The notes beneath the pieces are model-generated. The model saw only the letters and a list, made by a program, of their open reading frames with translations. It had not been told where the DNA came from and searched no databases. This document shows, one piece after another, positions 10,988 through 60,035 of a stretch of 64,000 nucleotides of DNA. Each line of letters starts with the position of its first letter. Within the stretch, counting starts at the first letter, position 1. Source of the DNA: Flavobacteriaceae bacterium (lineage in GTDB: Bacteria; Bacteroidota; Bacteroidia; Flavobacteriales; Flavobacteriaceae); assembly GCA_017857815.1 (NCBI GenBank), contig JAFMCL010000002.1, positions 1 through 64,000 of the forward strand. The letters run 5' to 3'. Made by a program: the position numbers and the translations under genes.

Positions 10988-11374
10988 ATGAATAAAGTTA
11001 TTTTTTCTTGGATAGTCGCCTCAATTGTCCTCTGCTTGTTGTCCACAAATATAATGGCTCAGGAAACCTTAGTGAAAGTTAATCAAGATGTGCTCATAAA
11101 GAAGCTAATGACTTTAAAGAAAGAGGTTGATAGCGAGACCTATGCCTCACACTTTTTTACCATTCAACTTTACTATGGGAAATATGAAGTTGCAGAAAGG
11201 ATAATTACAGCGTTTAAAGAAAATTATCCTGAATGGGATGCTGATTTGAGTTTTGAAACGCCAAACTATAAAGTACAAGTGGGTCGATTCAAACAATACT
11301 ACAACGCATTGAATAAGCTTAATGAAATCAAAAAAGTTTATCCTGGTGCTTTTCTATTAACGTTGAAGAATTAA
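10988..11374 (+). CDS. SPOR domain-containing exported protein
   Basis: A 128-residue protein starting at the ATG at 10988, which gives a clean signal peptide ([10 protein letters not shown] then a hydrophobic core, cleavage near IMA/QE). An in-frame start five codons earlier (10973) is possible but less signal-like. The C-terminal part, from about residue 90 ([15 protein letters not shown]), has the pattern of a SPOR domain, a fold that binds denuded glycan strands of peptidoglycan at the septum. The product is therefore probably periplasmic and cell-wall associated. It converges on infB and overlaps its 3' end by 4 bp. Confidence 0.75.
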
Positions 11375-14178
11375 AGTTTTTTCTTGACTGCCACTTCTTG
11401 GAAGCATTCAAGCATATCTCCTTCTTGTATTTCGTTGTAATTCTTAACCTGAAGTCCACAGTCATAGCCTTTGGCAACCTCTTTGGCATCGTCTTTAAAT
11501 CGTTTCAATGAAGACAAAAATCCTGAATGAATTACAACTCCTTCACGGATAATTCTGATTCCAGAATTTCGGAATATTTTTCCAGTCATTACCATACACC
11601 CTGCAACAGTTCCAACTTTAGAAATTTTATAAGTTTCTCTGATTTCTGCAGTCCCTGTAATTTCTTCTTTCATTTCAGGAGATAACATTCCTTCCATGGC
11701 GTCTTTAACATCGTTAATGGCGTCGTAGATGATAGAGTAAGACCGGATATCGATTTCCTCTTTGTCTGCTATTGATCTTGCATTCCCCATTGGTCGAACA
11801 TTAAATCCAATAACAATTGCGTCTGAAGCAGAGGCCAAAAGCACATCTGATTCTGTAATTGCACCAACTCCTTTGTGTATTATATTAACTTGAATTTCTT
11901 CAGTCGATAGTTTTTGTAAAGAATCAGTAAGGGCTTCAACTGAACCATCTACATCTCCTTTAAGTATTAAATTAAGTTCTTTAAATTCTCCTAGAGCAAT
12001 CCTTCTTCCGATTTCATCTAGGGTAATATGACGCTGCGTTCTAACATTCTGTTCCCGTTGAAGTTGCGTTCTTTTAGCAGCAATTTGTTTGGCCTCTTTT
12101 TCATCTTCCAATACGTTAAAATTATCTCCTGCTTGGGGTGCTCCATCGAGTCCTAAAACTGAAACAGGTGAGGAAGGCGGAACGGCGTCAAGCGCATTTC
12201 CACGTTCATCAAACATTGCTTTAATTTTTCCACTATGTTTTCCAGCCAAAATATAATCTCCAATATTCAACGTTCCTGTTTGAACCAGAATCGTAGAAAC
12301 ATAACCCCGTCCTTTATCTAGAAATGCTTCAACAACAGTTCCTTTAGATTTTCGATTAGGATTTGCTTTTAATTCAAGAATTTCCGCTTCAAGTAATACT
12401 TTTTCTAAAAGCTCTTTAATTCCAGTTCCTTTTAGGGCTGAAATATCTTGTGATTGGATTTTACCTCCCCAATCTTCAACCATCAGATTCATTCCGGCAA
12501 GCGCTTCTTTGATCTTTTCTGGATTTGAATTGGGCTTATCAATTTTATTTATTGCAAAAATAATCGGAACCCCTGCCGCCTGCGCGTGACTGATTGCCTC
12601 TTTTGTTTGAGGCATAATATCATCATCCGCAGCAACTACAATAATTGCAATATCAGTAACCTGAGCACCACGAGCTCGCATGGCTGTAAAAGCCTCGTGT
12701 CCTGGTGTGTCTAAAAAAGTGATCTTCTGATCGTCTTTCAACGTTACAGAATATGCACCAATGTGTTGCGTTATACCACCAGATTCCCCAGCAATTACAT
12801 TTTCTTCTCTTATATAATCTAGTAATGAAGTTTTCCCATGATCAACATGTCCCATTACGGTAACGATCGGAGCACGAGGTTTTAAATCCTCCTCTACATC
12901 CTTTTCTTCATCGATATTTTCTTCTAGCTCCGTTTTAACAAACTCAACTTGATAACCAAATTCATCCGCAACAATAGATAAGGTTTCCGCATCAAGCCTT
13001 TGATTCATGGTCACCATGATTCCCAATGACATACATGCTGAGATGATTTCAGTAGAACTAATTTCCATTAAAGTAGCGATTTCTCCTACTGTAATAAATT
13101 CAGTTACTTTAATTGTTTTGCTACTAGCTTCTTGTTCTGCCAATTCTTCTTCGGACTTTTGACGGTGTTGGTCACGTTTGTCCCTTCTGTACTTGGCTCC
13201 TTTGGACTTGTTAGATTTTCCTTGAAGCTTTTCTAAAGTTTCACGAATTTGCTTTTGAACTTCTTCATCTGTTGGCTCGGCCTTAACTGGCTGGGGAGTC
13301 CGTCCTTTTTGTGGTGGTCTCTGTCTAGAATTGGTGTTTGTTTTATTTTGAGTATTAGCAGTTCTAGCTCCTGGTTTAGGTGCGGGATCTTTACTAATTC
13401 TTTTTCTTTTTCTCTTACGCGCGTCTTCTACTGTTTTTTCTTTCTTTTTAAACTCATCTAAATCGATGGTTTGTCCAGTTTTCTTAAAGCCCGTAAGCGT
13501 TTTGTATTTGGTTTTTATTGCATGGGGATCCACTGTAGTCGGAGTTGCTTCTGCAGTAGTTTCTGCTTTGACTTCAGGTGCTACTGAATCTGTCGCAACT
13601 GCTTCGGGTTTGGCAACCTCAGCTTTCACAGGAGCTTCAGTAACCATTTTCGTCACCTCTTTGACAGGAACTGGCACAGGAACTTCTTCTGTTTTTTTAG
13701 CAACCTTTTCCTCAACAACAACTTCCACCTCTTTTTTAGCAACTGGCTTTTGAGCAATAACCTCTGGAGGTTTAGGAGCCACTGGCATTTTTTCTATTGG
13801 AGGCTTGGCAACTGCCTTTGGAGGATTAAGATCAATTTTACCAAGCATTACAGGCTTGGTGATTGTAGCTTTAGCCCTTATAACTTCTTGGCGTTTTTGC
13901 TGCAACTCGATTCGTTCTTGCTCTTTTTTCTCCTGCAAGATTCTTAAAGATTCTTTCTCTTTTTTCTTCTCCTCACTAATTTCATGAGAAGCATCCTTTT
14001 TGGATTTATCTGTGGCAAATTCATCGAGTAAAACACGATAAATATCCTTTGATATTTTTGTAGTAGGACGGGCTTCGATTTCAATATCCTTTTGAGAAAG
14101 GAATTCGACCGCACGATCTAGAGAAATATTTAATTCTCTTAGTGCTACATTTAATCTTATTGTTGAAATATCTGCCAT
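11371..14178 (-). CDS. infB: Translation initiation factor IF-2
   Basis: IF-2 is the GTPase that places initiator fMet-tRNA on the 30S subunit and drives subunit joining. The product is 935 residues. It has a long N-terminal region rich in Lys, Glu, Pro and Ala (about 80-360), then the G domain with GHVDHGKTS (about 443-451), DTPGHE and NKID, and beta-barrel/C-terminal domains ending in the fMet-tRNA binding module. The initial segment (about 1-55) resembles the IF-2 N-terminal helical subdomain. It is the third gene of rimP-nusA-infB, 46 bp after nusA. Confidence 0.98.
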
Positions 14179-14224: not shown

Positions 14225-15457
14225 TTATTCCTCAAACTCAGCTTTTAAAATTCGTAATACTTCACTTACAGTCTCATCTTCCAAATCAGTTCGCTTGATT
14301 ATGTCTTCTTTTTGAAGTTCAAGAATGCTTTTTGCAGTGTCCAAACCAACTTTTTTGAACTCATCAATTATCCACGAATCGATTTCATCGCTGAATTCTG
14401 CAAGCTCAACGTCTTCCTCTGCTCCTTCTCTAAATACATCTATTTCATATCCTGTCAGTTTTCCTGCAAGTCTTATGTTGTGACCTCCCCTTCCAATCGC
14501 TTTAGAAACCTCATCAGGGTTCAAGAACACCTGAACTCTTTTTGTTTCTTCATCTATCTTTAAAGAATTTATTTTTGCAGGACTCAAAGCACGAGTAATG
14601 AACAATTGTGAATTGTTGGTGTAATTGATTACATCAATGTTTTCATTCCCTAATTCTCTTACTATTCCATGAATACGAGAGCCTTTCATACCAACACATG
14701 CTCCTACTGGATCAATACGATCATCGTAAGAATCTACGGCTACTTTCGCTTTTTCACCAGGAATTCTGACTGCTTTTTTGATCGTAATTAAACCGTCAAA
14801 AACTTCAGGGATTTCTTGTTCAAATAATTTTTCTAAAAACAAAGGGGATGTTCTCGAAAGAACAATTCTTGGTTTGTTTCCTCTTAATTCAACCAACTCG
14901 ATGACCCCTCTCACGTTGTCTCCTTTTCGGTAAAAATCACTAGGTATTTGTTGTTCCTTAGGCAATATAATTTCATTCCCATCGTCATCTAGAAGAATGA
15001 CTTCTCTATTACGAATGTGGTGAACCTCAGCAGTAAACAACTCGCCAATTCTATCTTTAAATTGATTGAATGTATTGGTGCTGTCATGCTCAAAAATCTT
15101 TGAAATCAAGTTTTGACGTAAGGTTTGAATGGACCTTCTCCCAAGGTTAATAAGCTTTACTTCTTCAGAAACGTCTTCACCAACTTCAAAGTCGGGCTCA
15201 ATTTTTCTAGCTTCCGTTAATTCAATTTCTTGGTTTGGGTCTTCAACCACTCCATCTTTAACAACAACTCTATTTCTCCAAATTTCTAAATCCCCTTTGT
15301 CTGGGTTGATAATTATATCAAAATTTTCATCTGAACCAAACTTGCGTTTTAAAGTGTTTCTAAAAACTTCTTCCAAAATGACCATCAATGTTACTCTGTC
15401 AATCAATTTTTCATCTTTGAATTCAGAAAACGAATCTATTAGTGCTAAATTTTCCAT
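14225..15457 (-). CDS. nusA: Transcription termination/antitermination factor NusA
   Basis: NusA binds RNA polymerase and nascent RNA, modulating pausing, intrinsic termination and antitermination. The 410-residue product shows the N-terminal polymerase-binding domain (about 1-130), an S1 domain (about 135-205) and two KH domains. The KH domains include the segment GACVGMKGSRIHGI and the second GxxG motif AIGRGGHNIRLA. The C-terminal part (about 350-410) contains one helix-hairpin-type repeat. Length and layout fit the short Bacteroidota form without the two acidic repeats of E. coli. It lies 11 bp after rimP, and autoregulation through the leader hairpin is an attractive inference. Confidence 0.97.
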   Translation of the reverse strand: MENLALIDSFSEFKDEKLIDRVTLMVILEEVFRNTLKRKFGSDENFDIIINPDKGDLEIWRNRVVVKDGVVEDPNQEIELTEARKIEPDFEVGEDVSEEVKLINLGRRSIQTLRQNLISKIFEHDSTNTFNQFKDRIGELFTAEVHHIRNREVILLDDDGNEIILPKEQQIPSDFYRKGDNVRGVIELVELRGNKPRIVLSRTSPLFLEKLFEQEIPEVFDGLITIKKAVRIPGEKAKVAVDSYDDRIDPVGACVGMKGSRIHGIVRELGNENIDVINYTNNSQLFITRALSPAKINSLKIDEETKRVQVFLNPDEVSKAIGRGGHNIRLAGKLTGYEIDVFREGAEEDVELAEFSDEIDSWIIDEFKKVGLDTAKSILELQKEDIIKRTDLEDETVSEVLRILKAEFEE

Positions 15458-15468
15458 CTCTAATTATG

Positions 15469-15936
15469 TTAGAATTTTACAATAACCTTTGTTTGATTTA
15501 TTTGCTCAAAAGCAATAACTTTATTTTTCTTTACAGTAACTTTTCCTTTTCCTATTGGTTTGGGTTCTCTTTGTTTCCACTCCAATTCAATTTCATTTTC
15601 ATCAGCTTTAACCAATTTTCCTTTTATGATTTCACCCTCGAGAAGCATAACTTCTAATTCTCGATTGATATTTTTCAAATATTGCCTCGGGAATTTCAAC
15701 GGGCTTCCCACACCAGCTGAAGCCACTTCCAGCCCAAAATCTTCTTCATCGCGATCTAGCTCATGCTCAATGGCACGGCTAATATTGATGCAATCCTTAA
15801 CGTTAATTTCATCATCTCCGTCAAGAATTATCTTAATAGAATTGTCACCCCCAATTTTGAGGTCAACCAAGAAAATGTGTGGGTTTTCCTTGAGTGCCTC
15901 GGTAAGTAAATCTTCTACTTTTTGGTTAAAATTCAT
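15469..15936 (-). CDS. rimP: Ribosome maturation factor RimP
   Basis: RimP helps assemble the 30S subunit. The 155-residue product has the two usual domains: an N-terminal alpha/beta domain (about 1-80) with the segment CINISRAIEHELDRDEEDF, and a C-terminal SH3-like domain starting after EVASAGVGSPL. Its start at 15936 lies just 4 bases after the T-tract of a leader hairpin, so expression of the whole rimP-nusA-infB operon passes through that structure. Confidence 0.95.
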   Translation of the reverse strand: MNFNQKVEDLLTEALKENPHIFLVDLKIGGDNSIKIILDGDDEINVKDCINISRAIEHELDRDEEDFGLEVASAGVGSPLKFPRQYLKNINRELEVMLLEGEIIKGKLVKADENEIELEWKQREPKPIGKGKVTVKKNKVIAFEQINQTKVIVKF

Positions 15937-15940
15937 GTCA

Positions 15941-15968
15941 AAAAAAAGAGGGACTAATAGTCGCCTCT
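15941..15968 (-). terminator. Hairpin plus T-tract in the rimP-nusA-infB leader (candidate attenuator)
   Basis: On the minus strand AGAGG, a bulged C, GAC, a 5-nt loop TATTA, GTC and CCTCT form an eight-pair stem. It is followed immediately by a run of T (15947-15941). This is the shape of an intrinsic terminator, yet it sits between the predicted promoter and the rimP start codon, where it can only attenuate the operon. The structure is directly visible; its function is inferred. Confidence 0.6.
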
Positions 15969-15991
15969 GATAGATTTTTCATAATGCTTTG

Positions 15992-16021
15992 CAAATATAA
16001 CATTTTTTAGCGTCTTCCAAA
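15992..16021 (-). promoter_or_regulatory. Predicted promoter of rimP-nusA-infB
   Basis: TTTG (16021-16018) and TATATTTG (15999-15992) on the minus strand are perfect matches to both Bacteroidota promoter elements, with an 18-base spacer. Predicted transcription start near 15986, giving a leader of about 50 nt that is mostly occupied by the hairpin at 15941-15968. Confidence 0.65.
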
Positions 16022-16171: not shown

Positions 16172-17479
16172 TTGAAAAAAAAACACCTTTTCTATTCTTT
16201 TGTGATCCTAATGGGGATAATCTACATTGCACTTAAACCTGGCAAACTCCCTTCTTATAACCCAGAAAGAGATTATCTCGATATGGAAGTCCCAATTCTG
16301 GAAGCTTTTATAACTGCAAAAGACTCCAGTGTGATTCAATTGCCAGAGGGGCATTACTTATTCAGTCAATCCCTAATCTTAGACGGAAAAAAAGGCATTA
16401 CCATCCGCGGGATGGGAATGGACAAGACAATTCTCTCTTTTAAAGGTCAAAAGCAAGGTGCTGAGGGAATCAGAATTTCTAATTGTGAAAACATTATCAT
16501 AGAAAACTTAGCCCTAGAGGATGCTGCTGGCGACAACCTTAAAGTTACTGACACCGACGGAATCATAATGCGTAAAATCAGATCGGCTTGGACGGGACAA
16601 GTTTCCTCTAAAAATGGTGCTTATGCGCTCTACCCTGTTTTATGTAGCAATGTTATCATTGAAGATTGTGAAGCTATTGGCTCTTCAGATGCAGGAATTT
16701 ATGTAGGTCAATCTAATCATGTGATTATAAGGAATAACAAAGCCTATTATAATGTAGCTGGAATCGAAAGTGAAAACAGTACAAATGTTGAGATTTACAA
16801 CAACGAAGCTTATCAGAATACTGGAGGATTATTGATTTTCAATCTGCCCAACCTAACCGTGTATGGATCAAAAATTAAAGCATATGACAATTACATCCAC
16901 GACAATAACATTAAAAACTTTGGAGTTAAAGGATCTATCGTTAGCTCGGTTCCTCGCGGATCAGGGGTGATTATCATGGCTACCAAAGAAGTTGATTTTT
17001 ATAACAATAAGGTTGAAAACCATAAAACTGTTAATGCTTCTATTGTTAGTTATGAAGTGTTTACTTCTGAAAAAAAAGATCGTAAAAAGAAAAAAGAAGA
17101 GCTAAAGGCGCTTGCAAACGGCCTAAGAGCTGTTGATAATGAATATCGTCAAGACGAACAATACAATGCCTACCCTGGCAGGGTATCTATTCATGACAAT
17201 CGTTTTGAAAACAAACACTTTTTCCCCACCTTAGACAATGACTTCGGTTTACTTTGGGTGATGAAAAATGGATTCAAAATTCCTGACGTTGCTTATGACT
17301 TAATCCTTGCCGAGGATTATTATTTAAAGAACAACACTAGGAATCCTGAATATGAAATTTGTGTAAAAAATAATGGTGACATCAATTTTGTTGTCTTAGA
17401 TGCAGCAAATGATTTTGAAAAATTCTCAAATGACCTTGGACCATATGACTGTGATATTGAATTTAAAACATCCATCTAA
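16172..17479 (+). CDS. Membrane-anchored/secreted parallel beta-helix protein (TIGR03805-like)
   Basis: A 435-residue protein with a TTG start (TTG AAA AAA) and an N-terminal hydrophobic segment (about 5-20), so exported and possibly anchored. From about residue 60 to 300 it shows repeated short strands rich in Asn, Ile and Gly (for example IRISNCENIIIENLAL and NVIIEDCEAIGSSDAGIYVG). These are the coils of a right-handed parallel beta-helix. A Lys/Glu-rich insert lies near 305-320. The gene is 9 bp upstream of a two-CXXCH lipoprotein. From memory, families TIGR03805 and TIGR03806 form exactly such a two-gene pair of unknown function. Many beta-helix proteins act on polysaccharides, but no catalytic residues could be assigned. 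Confidence 0.8.
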   Translation: MKKKHLFYSFVILMGIIYIALKPGKLPSYNPERDYLDMEVPILEAFITAKDSSVIQLPEGHYLFSQSLILDGKKGITIRGMGMDKTILSFKGQKQGAEGIRISNCENIIIENLALEDAAGDNLKVTDTDGIIMRKIRSAWTGQVSSKNGAYALYPVLCSNVIIEDCEAIGSSDAGIYVGQSNHVIIRNNKAYYNVAGIESENSTNVEIYNNEAYQNTGGLLIFNLPNLTVYGSKIKAYDNYIHDNNIKNFGVKGSIVSSVPRGSGVIIMATKEVDFYNNKVENHKTVNASIVSYEVFTSEKKDRKKKKEELKALANGLRAVDNEYRQDEQYNAYPGRVSIHDNRFENKHFFPTLDNDFGLLWVMKNGFKIPDVAYDLILAEDYYLKNNTRNPEYEICVKNNGDINFVVLDAANDFEKFSNDLGPYDCDIEFKTSI

Positions 17480-53109: not shown

Positions 53110-54561
53110 ATGGCACCTTTTTTAAGACAGATTTCATTAAGAACCCAGATTTTCATTTCGATGATTCTTCTCGTCTTTATTGCTTGTCTTTTGATTCTTG
53201 GAGCGACTTTTTTTCAATACAAAAATGAGTCCAAGGATTATAACCTTTTCAGACTTAACCGAAAGGAAAATCAGTTGAGGAGTCAAATCAATTATTTGGT
53301 CGATAAAAACAGTTTGATCAACAAACCTAAACCTGTTTGGTCCAAATTTGAAAATGATTTTAGCGCAATAATAAAAATTCATAAAGTAAATTTTTCGCTA
53401 TTTGATCTTGAAGGAAAACCATTATTTACCTCGTTTTTACCGCTAAAAATTATTGCAAATAATTATACCCTCAAACAAGAGCTCATTGAGAAGATCCAGA
53501 ATAGTTTTGAAGGGAGATTCTTAGAGCAGAATAATGATGAAATTGGTAAGTTTCAGTCTTCTTATAGTCTATTAAAAGACAAAAATGGTAGGCCATTCGC
53601 GCTGTTGTTTTTCCCCTACTTTGAGGACGTTTCTTTTTCAGAAAATGAATTGAGTACTTTTTTGCAAAGTCTTTATCAGATCTATCTTTTGATGCTGGTC
53701 TTTGCTATTATTTTAGCCTATTTTATTTCAAGATACATCTCGCGTTCTTTGGAAACGATACGTATGAAAATCGACCAAACGGGCTTGTTAAAACAAAATG
53801 AAAAAATACATCTTAAAAACGCCACAAGAGAGATTTCTAGTTTGATCAATTCTTACAATAAAATGATTGATGACATCGAAAGCAGTGCCGAACTATTGGC
53901 TAAAAACCAAAGGGAACAAGCGTGGCAAGAGATGGCAAAACAAGTGGCTCACGAGATAAAAAACCCATTAACTCCGATGCGTTTAACCGTCCAAAGTTTT
54001 CAAAGAAAATTTTCAGAAAAGGACACGGATAATACGAGTAAAATTGAAGCGTTTTCTCAAACCTTGATTGAACAAATTGACACGATGAGTAATGTTGCAA
54101 ATGCTTTTTCGGACTTTGCAACCCTACCCGTTCCTAAATTGGTGAGTTCAGATTTGGTTGAGGTCACAAGAAGATCTTTAGAAATTTTTGAGAAAAACAA
54201 GATCAACTTTAAAACTTCTAATCCCGTTGTGATGGTTAAATTAGATCGAACACAATGGATTAGAGTGATCACCAATTTAATTCAAAATGCCCTCCAAGCG
54301 GTACCTCAAGGAAAGAAAGCTAGAGTGAAAGTGAAAATAGAAGTTCTTAACACCGAAGTTAAAATCTATTTTACTGATAATGGAAATGGAATTCCTATTT
54401 CAATACAAAAAAAGGTGTTTGAACCCAAGTTTACGACAAAGAGCAAAGGCATGGGATTGGGACTAGGTATTGTGAAAAACATCATAGATTCGCATGGTGG
54501 GAAAATTGATTATAAAACAGGAGAAAAGGGAACCACTTTTTCAATAACATTAAATTTATAA
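53110..54561 (+). CDS. Membrane sensor histidine kinase (NtrY-like), no adjacent response regulator
   Basis: A 483-residue kinase with two membrane helices (about 17-37 and 190-208) flanking a periplasmic domain of about 150 residues, followed by a HAMP-like linker. Next is the phosphoacceptor H-box (KQVAHEIKNPLTPMRL, His at 281). The ATP-binding domain carries NLIQNAL, DNGNGIP and FTTKSKGMGLGLGI. The H-box reading HEIKNPLTP is typical of NtrY-like kinases. No response regulator is next to it, so the partner is encoded elsewhere. The signal is unknown. Confidence 0.93.
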   Translation: MAPFLRQISLRTQIFISMILLVFIACLLILGATFFQYKNESKDYNLFRLNRKENQLRSQINYLVDKNSLINKPKPVWSKFENDFSAIIKIHKVNFSLFDLEGKPLFTSFLPLKIIANNYTLKQELIEKIQNSFEGRFLEQNNDEIGKFQSSYSLLKDKNGRPFALLFFPYFEDVSFSENELSTFLQSLYQIYLLMLVFAIILAYFISRYISRSLETIRMKIDQTGLLKQNEKIHLKNATREISSLINSYNKMIDDIESSAELLAKNQREQAWQEMAKQVAHEIKNPLTPMRLTVQSFQRKFSEKDTDNTSKIEAFSQTLIEQIDTMSNVANAFSDFATLPVPKLVSSDLVEVTRRSLEIFEKNKINFKTSNPVVMVKLDRTQWIRVITNLIQNALQAVPQGKKARVKVKIEVLNTEVKIYFTDNGNGIPISIQKKVFEPKFTTKSKGMGLGLGIVKNIIDSHGGKIDYKTGEKGTTFSITLNL

Positions 54562-58433: not shown

Positions 58434-60035
58434 ATGAATATGAAAAAAAACGACCTCTACCTATTTGCCATTGTGCTGTTGTCAATTGGCATTGGATATT
58501 TAGTCGGAAGCAAAGAGATTCCAGCACCATTCAATCCTTTTAGATCTCTCAACACCCAACGTTTAGATCAACTCCTTGAGTATATTTCTAATGATTATGT
58601 TGACGAGATAAACACCGATAGTTTGGTCGGTAAAGTCATCGAAGATATTGTTAATAAGTTAGATCCGCATTCTGTCTATATTCCTGCTTCTCAAAGACAA
58701 TCTATTGCCGAAAACATGCAAGGGAATTTTGAAGGAATTGGGGTAAGTTTCTTAATGGTTAGAGACACTGTTTCAATTTTAAGAGTTCTTGAGGGTGGGC
58801 CCAGTGAAGCGGCAGGGATTCTTGCGGGAGATAAAATTTTAATTGCAGACAATGATACCTTATATCAAAAAAACTATGCTTCCGAGCGTATCATAAAAAT
58901 ATTGAAAGGTCCCTCTGACACTCAAGTGGCATTGACAATTTTTCGAAAGTCTAAAAATGAAACCTTAAAGATCGACCTTAAAAGAGGTAAAGTTCCACTG
59001 AGAAGCGTTGAGTCCTACTATATGTTGGCGGATAACATTGGCTACATAAAAATCAATCGGTTTTCTCAAACGACTTATGAAGAATTTGAGTCCGCTACAA
59101 AAAGCTTAATGGCGAGTGGAATGACAAAAATGATTTTGGATTTAAGAGATAATCCTGGAGGTTATCTTTCGGCGGCAAGAGAAATTTCTGACACCTTTTT
59201 AGACAAAGATCAGACCATCGTAATCACCCAAACCAACAAAGGAAAAGAAGAGCGATCTTTTGCCACGGGCTCGGGTATTTTTAAGGAAGGAAGCTTGGTC
59301 GTTTTGACCAACGGACAGTCCGCCTCGGCAAGTGAAATTGTTGCTGGTGCAATTCAGGACAATGACAGAGGATGGGTGGTCGGAAGAAGAACTTTTGGAA
59401 AAGGGTTGGTGCAGCAACAAATGCCCCTAGGAGGTGGAGATGCCATCAGGTTGACCATCGCCCGTTACTTTACCCCTACTGGAAGATCGATTCAAAAGCC
59501 TTATGGGCGTGATCATGAAGCCTATTATAACGATTTAAACCAGCGTATTGAAAATGGTGAAATGGCTGACGAAAATAAAGTACCTATTACTGATAGCCTT
59601 GCATTTAAGACCCCTAAAGGGAGAACGGTCTATGGCGGCGGCGGAATCGTTCCTGACGTTTATATTTCAAATAATAAGTCTGAGGAAGAGCAATGGAATG
59701 CCTATGTATTAAAGTCAAGTTTGGTAAACAACTTTGTATTTAATGAGCTGGATAAGGATCGGGGGAAATATGAAAAACTAAGTGAAGACGACCTTCTAAA
59801 TGGACAAATTATTGATGAACGGGAATGGTACGAAGGGCTTAAAGAACACCTAAAGAAAAACGGAATGCAACTCAATAATGCCGACAAAAGTATTGCGATC
59901 AACTCCATCAAAGCCTATATTGGATTTCAGCTTTTTGGTGACAATGCCTACAACAGAATCAATAACCAAGATGATGAGTTCATAAAACAAGCAGTTCAGT
60001 CTCTAAATCGTCTGGGACTCACTATTGATTATTGA
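58434..60035 (+). CDS. ctpA: S41 family C-terminal processing peptidase
   Basis: A 533-residue periplasmic serine protease anchored by an N-terminal hydrophobic helix (about 7-26). A PDZ domain covers about 95-180 (VSFLMVRDTVSIL onward). The catalytic serine lies in NGQSASASEIVAG, and the general-base lysine in TFGKGLVQQ. These proteases trim exported proteins and turn over cell-wall factors. A C-terminal helical extension is present. The last 14 bp overlap the small membrane-protein gene on the other strand. Confidence 0.94.
   Translation: MNMKKNDLYLFAIVLLSIGIGYLVGSKEIPAPFNPFRSLNTQRLDQLLEYISNDYVDEINTDSLVGKVIEDIVNKLDPHSVYIPASQRQSIAENMQGNFEGIGVSFLMVRDTVSILRVLEGGPSEAAGILAGDKILIADNDTLYQKNYASERIIKILKGPSDTQVALTIFRKSKNETLKIDLKRGKVPLRSVESYYMLADNIGYIKINRFSQTTYEEFESATKSLMASGMTKMILDLRDNPGGYLSAAREISDTFLDKDQTIVITQTNKGKEERSFATGSGIFKEGSLVVLTNGQSASASEIVAGAIQDNDRGWVVGRRTFGKGLVQQQMPLGGGDAIRLTIARYFTPTGRSIQKPYGRDHEAYYNDLNQRIENGEMADENKVPITDSLAFKTPKGRTVYGGGGIVPDVYISNNKSEEEQWNAYVLKSSLVNNFVFNELDKDRGKYEKLSEDDLLNGQIIDEREWYEGLKEHLKKNGMQLNNADKSIAINSIKAYIGFQLFGDNAYNRINNQDDEFIKQAVQSLNRLGLTIDY

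Follow-up and report, generated by a model that had tools for sequence, protein, structure and literature searches.

What does a hairpin do that stands between the promoter of the rimP-nusA-infB operon and its first gene? The question is raised by a locus in the window, a stretch of 64,000 nucleotides of flavobacterial DNA. The hairpin and the T-run behind it most likely make up an intrinsic terminator of low strength within the operon leader, under feedback control by NusA. The features of the locus are collected in Table 1.

Table 1. Features at the rimP locus, in window coordinates.
Feature	Position	Strand	Description
Promoter	15992..16021	(-)	TTTG (16021-16018), 18-nt spacer, TATATTTG (15999-15992); Bacteroidota -33/-7 type; comparative support
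Leader RNA	15937..15987	(-)	Predicted start at 15987, from the placement of the box at -12 to -5
Terminator-like hairpin	15947..15968	(-)	Nine pairs, bulged C at 15963, loop ATT
U-tract T8	15940..15947	(-)	Read from the sequence
14-codon upstream reading frame through the hairpin	15938..15982	(-)	Judged not functional
rimP	15469..15936	(-)	ORF and RimP identification; ATG at 15936
nusA	14225..15457	(-)	ORF and NusA identification; likely sensor and target
infB (IF-2)	11371..14178	(-)	ORF and IF-2 identification
Divergent neighbour of rimP	16172-17479	(+)	Parallel beta-helix protein, TIGR03805

An earlier note on this DNA had described a two-box promoter, which is borne out as TTTG-N18-TATATTTG on the minus strand. 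TTTG is the -33 box of this promoter type. By itself the two-box pattern is no commoner than chance in the 64-kb window (one found, 0.91 expected), and the support for the promoter is therefore comparative. The motif TAnnTTTG, given in PMC9723704, occurs within up to 250 nt 5' of rimP at 121 of the 122 loci that gave a RimP match; the sole exception, L060, has a sequence that begins inside rimP. The same source places the -7 box at -12 to -5, and transcription is thus predicted to start 5 nt past this box, yielding a leader of about 51 nt and a terminated RNA of about 47 nt. The window holds 56 ATG ORFs that do not overlap and are 100 amino acids or longer; 13 of them have TAnnTTTG within 170 nt. 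Among all 56, rimP is the only ORF with a terminator-like hairpin between the motif and the start codon. Terminator-like hairpins are also present within 170 nt 5' of a histidine kinase gene at 53110 (+) and an S41 peptidase gene at 58434 (+). TAnnTTTG is absent from these 170 nt, and both hairpins may lie in, or form the end of, the preceding genes.

The 5' arm of the rimP hairpin reads A15968, GAGG, the bulged C15963 and GACT; it is closed by ATT and pairs with AGTC, CCTC and T15947. The eight-pair bulged stem with a T-run proposed earlier was confirmed, with eight pairs counted without the outer A-U pair and nine with it. Behind T8 follow GAC and the ATG of rimP, so that the U-tract ends 3 nt before the gene. 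In the predicted 47-nt leader this hairpin is the lone fold (-10.3 kcal/mol; mean pairing probability of the stem 0.976), and one of 200 shuffles was as stable. The stem has -8.1 kcal/mol without the outer pair. A 71-nt stretch around the hairpin is less striking (z -2.05; 5 of 200 shuffles). As a terminator the structure would be suboptimal, with a bulge and a weak stem. It was not reported by a simple terminator scan, which is described as seeking unbulged stems. No rival antiterminator fold was seen among 112 leaders; the mean pairing probability of the stem is at least 0.8 in 101 of them, and the other 11 come from relatives whose stem is short and mismatched.

The gene next to the hairpin on its upstream side is divergent, hence the hairpin ends no other gene, and a terminator of an upstream gene was rejected for the window. 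A leader peptide was rejected as well: the 14-codon frame or its start differs in relatives, e.g. L004, L005, L012 and L015. Rfam yielded no match at gathering score in the window, and weak matches near the site were treated as chance. The family RF01770 (rimP) did not exceed its cut-off in any of 21 genomes, including this one; matches below the cut-off were again treated as chance. In five relatives, tRNA genes alone passed.

Of 22 genomes of the genus, 19 have a single copy of the bulged pattern, located just 5' of rimP. The three that lack it (G005, G006, G013; 65-87% complete) are also the only ones that gave no RimP match. Throughout the class Bacteroidia, the last 170 nt before rimP were searched for a hairpin at or below -6 kcal/mol with a U-tract behind it. 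This was found in 233 of 241 leaders, the number remaining from 252 once duplicates had been removed, versus 30 of 964 dinucleotide shuffles. The loci are mostly best matches to the proteins of the window, and near relatives are therefore over-represented. One of the eight remaining leaders, L037, scores -5.9; the other seven retain a hairpin when inspected by eye, and the U-tract behind it is broken or displaced. The count omits L060 (no upstream sequence), the truncated L170 and L171, L127-L134 (RF01770 matches), and four loci without rimP that entered the test on rimP-less genomes. The score of L256 belongs to a different upstream hairpin; the leader hairpin of this locus has a poor U-tract. 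An intact leader hairpin with a broken or displaced U-tract was noticed at L166, L186, L188, L218, L229, L248, L255 and L256. In view of such cases, the hairpin may have a role besides plain intrinsic termination.

The typical stem of the class is GAGGGGAC/GUCCCCUC. Alignment A3 comprises 49 distinct unbulged cores of one length; all 392 of 392 cells are paired, a figure that refers to this length class alone, and compensatory double changes occur at seven of the eight pairs. None of 500 shuffles matched this set in pairing or in compensatory changes. Examples of compensated stems are GAGCGGAC/GTCCGCTC, GAGAGGAC/GTCCTCTC, GAAGAC/GTCTTC and GAGGCACG/CGTGCCTC. With these changes and with a U-tract in most relatives, one of the two outcomes that the earlier note had named as refuting its claim, lack of conservation of stem or T-run, did not occur. 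Alignment A2 holds 150 of 169 distinct cores, 19 of unusual length being omitted; its arms are staggered, and no pair counts were taken from it. A script counted a bulge or mismatch in 30 of 166 distinct hairpins. Directly behind the stem, at least four T are present in 215 of 234 U-tracts, and the tail is broken before the seventh T in 177 of the 234 in the class. In 112 leaders, between 7 and 107 nt separate the stem from the mapped start. The inverted repeat GGGGAC/GTCCCC is present in 96 of 120 family genomes; among the matches listed with both coordinates (34 genomes, 36 sites), 33 repeats lie within 200 nt 5' of rimP. At L141, L143 and part of L145-L163, the whole stem is swapped (GAGGCACG/CGTGCCTC; GGCTTCGGAAGAAAGCC type), with hairpin and U-tract kept. 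In the phylum outside the class, a terminator-like hairpin precedes rimP in 25 of 26 loci examined, drawn from 74 same-phylum genomes with a RimP match; the stem sequences differ.

Among predicted attenuators, the rimP-leader has been described as the most ubiquitous; it has a GGGc/gCCC stem, a T-stretch, no antiterminator and a distance of 4-130 nt from the gene, and NusA was named as best candidate regulator (Naville and Gautheret, 2010, PMC2965389). The window element is the Bacteroidota form of this attenuator. Like the published leader, it lies between the promoter and the first gene of rimP-nusA-infB and has a G-rich 5' arm, a C-rich 3' arm, a T-stretch and no antiterminator. The class consensus GGGGAC/GTCCCC shares the GGG and CCC arms with the published GGGc(...)gCCC and differs from it in the inner bases, whereas the stem of the window reads GAGG(C)GAC/GTCCCTC and is bulged in the clade of the window. 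The start codon follows the U-tract after 3 nt, compared with 4-130 nt in the published set. Bacteroidetes and Flavobacter are not named in the main text of PMC2965389. The idea of the earlier note that the flavobacterium uses a hairpin of its own was thus not upheld: the hairpin is a Bacteroidia-wide form of the known attenuator, and the clade of the window is distinguished by the bulge and the longer T-run alone. For Flavobacteriaceae, among them Flavobacterium psychrophilum, a conserved structured 5' element without Rfam match has been reported in front of rimP; section 19 of PMC9723704 assigns neither mechanism nor family to it. It is very probably the element of the window, given the same gene, the same family and the lack of an Rfam match. 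Escherichia coli has two terminators upstream of rimP (PMC6511841). In strain K-12, GGGCTTTAGGCCC and seven T are located 17 nt before the annotated rimP start; this leader differs in that metY precedes it and in its stem sequence.

Genomes without rimP provide a natural experiment on which gene the leader serves. Four of 80 loci had no RimP match, and the hairpin stands before nusA in all four. It follows directly after TAnnTTTG in three of them; in L064 it follows a one-base variant of the motif, about 120 nt before nusA. This stretch of about 120 nt may be a remnant of rimP; a RimP profile search of it gave no match. The follow-up covered three genomes of the genus and 14 of the family that gave no RimP match, G042 with a marginal match, and 20 of 44 order genomes. 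nusA was found in 24 of these 38 genomes, 13 with usable upstream sequence and 11 with upstream sequence too short or masked. A terminator-like hairpin occurs in the 170 nt before nusA at 16 of 17 rimP-less loci by score and at 15 by reading (L061, L062, L064, L067, L308, L311-L313, L315-L319, L323, L327), whereas any such hairpin before nusA was found at 4 of 157 rimP-containing control loci. L314 was not counted because its hairpin looks like the terminator of another gene and has no promoter motif. The 300-kb genome of L330 has no hairpin before nusA. TAnnTTTG is present at 13 of the 17 loci. The domain RimP_N is absent from all 17 genomes, with 10 of 14 control genomes positive, and the RimP profile gave one weak match, on another contig of G360 (E 0.0026). 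Several of the genomes are incomplete; the upstream region of nusA is present in each. The upstream sequences of L061 and L308 are identical, and both loci probably come from one genome. In the NusA tree, the rimP-less tips form six groups and require five changes, with some branchings poorly supported. Probably, then, the leader has persisted through more than one loss of rimP.

It follows that RimP cannot be required for the leader in these genomes. Since the leader tracks nusA and not rimP, feedback by NusA is favoured over a RimP sensor. Its persistence with nusA fits old reports from E. coli that NusA represses its own operon (cited in PMC2965389). The survival of the leader in front of nusA is new as far as the literature was searched: no description was recognised, most subscription papers and all supplements lying outside the search.

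The clade of the window shows a variation of its own. At 18 of 19 genus loci a bulged C forms the fifth base of the 5' arm; in the remaining one, G021, the 3' arm is changed. Related genera have an A or C bulged or mismatched at the equivalent place. The U-tract consists of 7-10 T in this clade versus mostly five T followed by AT in other family members. Across 234 leaders, a weaker stem goes along with a longer U-tract (raw rho 0.59). Contrasts on a RimP and NusA tree of 157 loci gave a tree-corrected correlation of 0.46 (p 0.001; 39 of 50 signs), unchanged after correction for locus GC. The strictest subset is limited to a full 3' arm (n=103), where stem and U-tract measures cannot trade a base, and the correlation is weak there (0.39, p 0.045, 10 of 18 signs). 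The link is suggestive and comes largely from one clade; in the full set it partly reflects where the stem is said to end. At most, it hints that selection favours an intermediate terminator.

In the proposed mechanism, some of the RNA polymerases leaving the promoter would stop in the U-tract after about 47 nt, while the rest would read into rimP-nusA-infB. NusA on the polymerase would help the weak hairpin to act. With high NusA, the operon that encodes it would then be transcribed less, and with low NusA more. Bacillus subtilis provides the precedent. The earlier note had named it, and a review confirms it: NusA is autoregulated by NusA-stimulated termination in the 5' leader and acts especially at weak hairpins and interrupted U-tracts (PMC12288461). 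Both leaders carry a terminator, here a putative one, in front of the same operon and no visible sensor domain; the feedback in B. subtilis was demonstrated by NusA depletion. Weak stems with long U-tracts and interrupted tails are suboptimal terminators of the kind on which NusA acts in B. subtilis. Stimulation by NusA is proposed because of this precedent and because loss of rimP leaves the leader in front of nusA. Neither ylxS nor rimP nor the nusA leader comes up in the main text of a B. subtilis Term-seq study on NusA and NusG (PMC8060035), which therefore gives no support either way. The suggestion of an attenuator following the Bacillus logic held for the conserved terminator-like leader, the compensated stem and the U-tract, and failed for a hairpin peculiar to this organism. 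Several observations count against the NusA-controlled terminator. In seven of 241 leaders the hairpin stands before a broken or displaced U-tract, a finding that plain intrinsic termination leaves unexplained, and the leader is missing at two of the 17 rimP-less loci (L314, L330). The link between stem strength and U-tract length is weak in the strictest subset. Moreover, the conserved stem sequence exceeds what termination needs.

The absence of a visible sensor domain or antiterminator would also suit a constitutive attenuator, passed by a fixed fraction of polymerases and setting a basal level without NusA feedback. A promoter mutation would lower expression equally well, though, and the class-wide conservation, the retention with nusA after loss of rimP and the feedback known from B. 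subtilis (PMC12288461) suggest a regulatory reason; this reading is unlikely. A protein other than NusA, e.g. a ribosomal protein, might bind the stem in a sequence-specific manner and decide on termination or translation. The GGGGAC/GUCCCC stem is conserved in the class and retained where the U-tract has decayed, as such a site would be. This explanation appears quite improbable, as the stem was replaced with compensation in several lineages (GAAGAC/GTCTTC, GAGGCACG/CGTGCCTC) and differs in sequence outside the class, while the hairpin stays.

A 5' hairpin that guards the mRNA or limits access of the ribosome, with no role in termination, would agree with the position of the window stem near the start codon. 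The variable distance to the start and the T residues directly behind most stems make it very improbable. Autoregulation by RimP, with the protein binding the leader of its own gene, was raised as a possibility in PMC2965389. Of 159 loci tested from the family, order and class, 157 hold both genes, and rimP comes first in these. With the hairpin before nusA at 15 of 17 loci of genomes without detectable RimP, autoregulation by RimP can be practically dismissed. A DNA operator would look alike as a palindrome with compensatory changes; the one-sided bulge and the T-tract favour RNA. A tentative extension of the NusA-controlled terminator holds that NusA itself recognises GGGGAC/GUCCCC and acts on termination, stem strength being traded against the U-tract to keep a NusA-responsive range. 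It is rather doubtful. If true, stem recognition by NusA would explain the class-wide sequence conservation and the hairpins with decayed U-tract, and a nusA-specific device would explain why the leader survived before nusA after repeated loss of rimP.

The analysis offers a probable mechanism for a flavobacterial 5' element previously printed without one and extends a widespread, little-tested attenuator across Bacteroidota. NusA feedback thereby becomes directly testable in tractable flavobacteria. As a side observation in the genomes without rimP, a tRNA-like sequence stands directly 5' of the nusA promoter at L061, L062, L067, L308, L311, L312, L315-L319 and L323; by eye it reads like tRNA-Gln.
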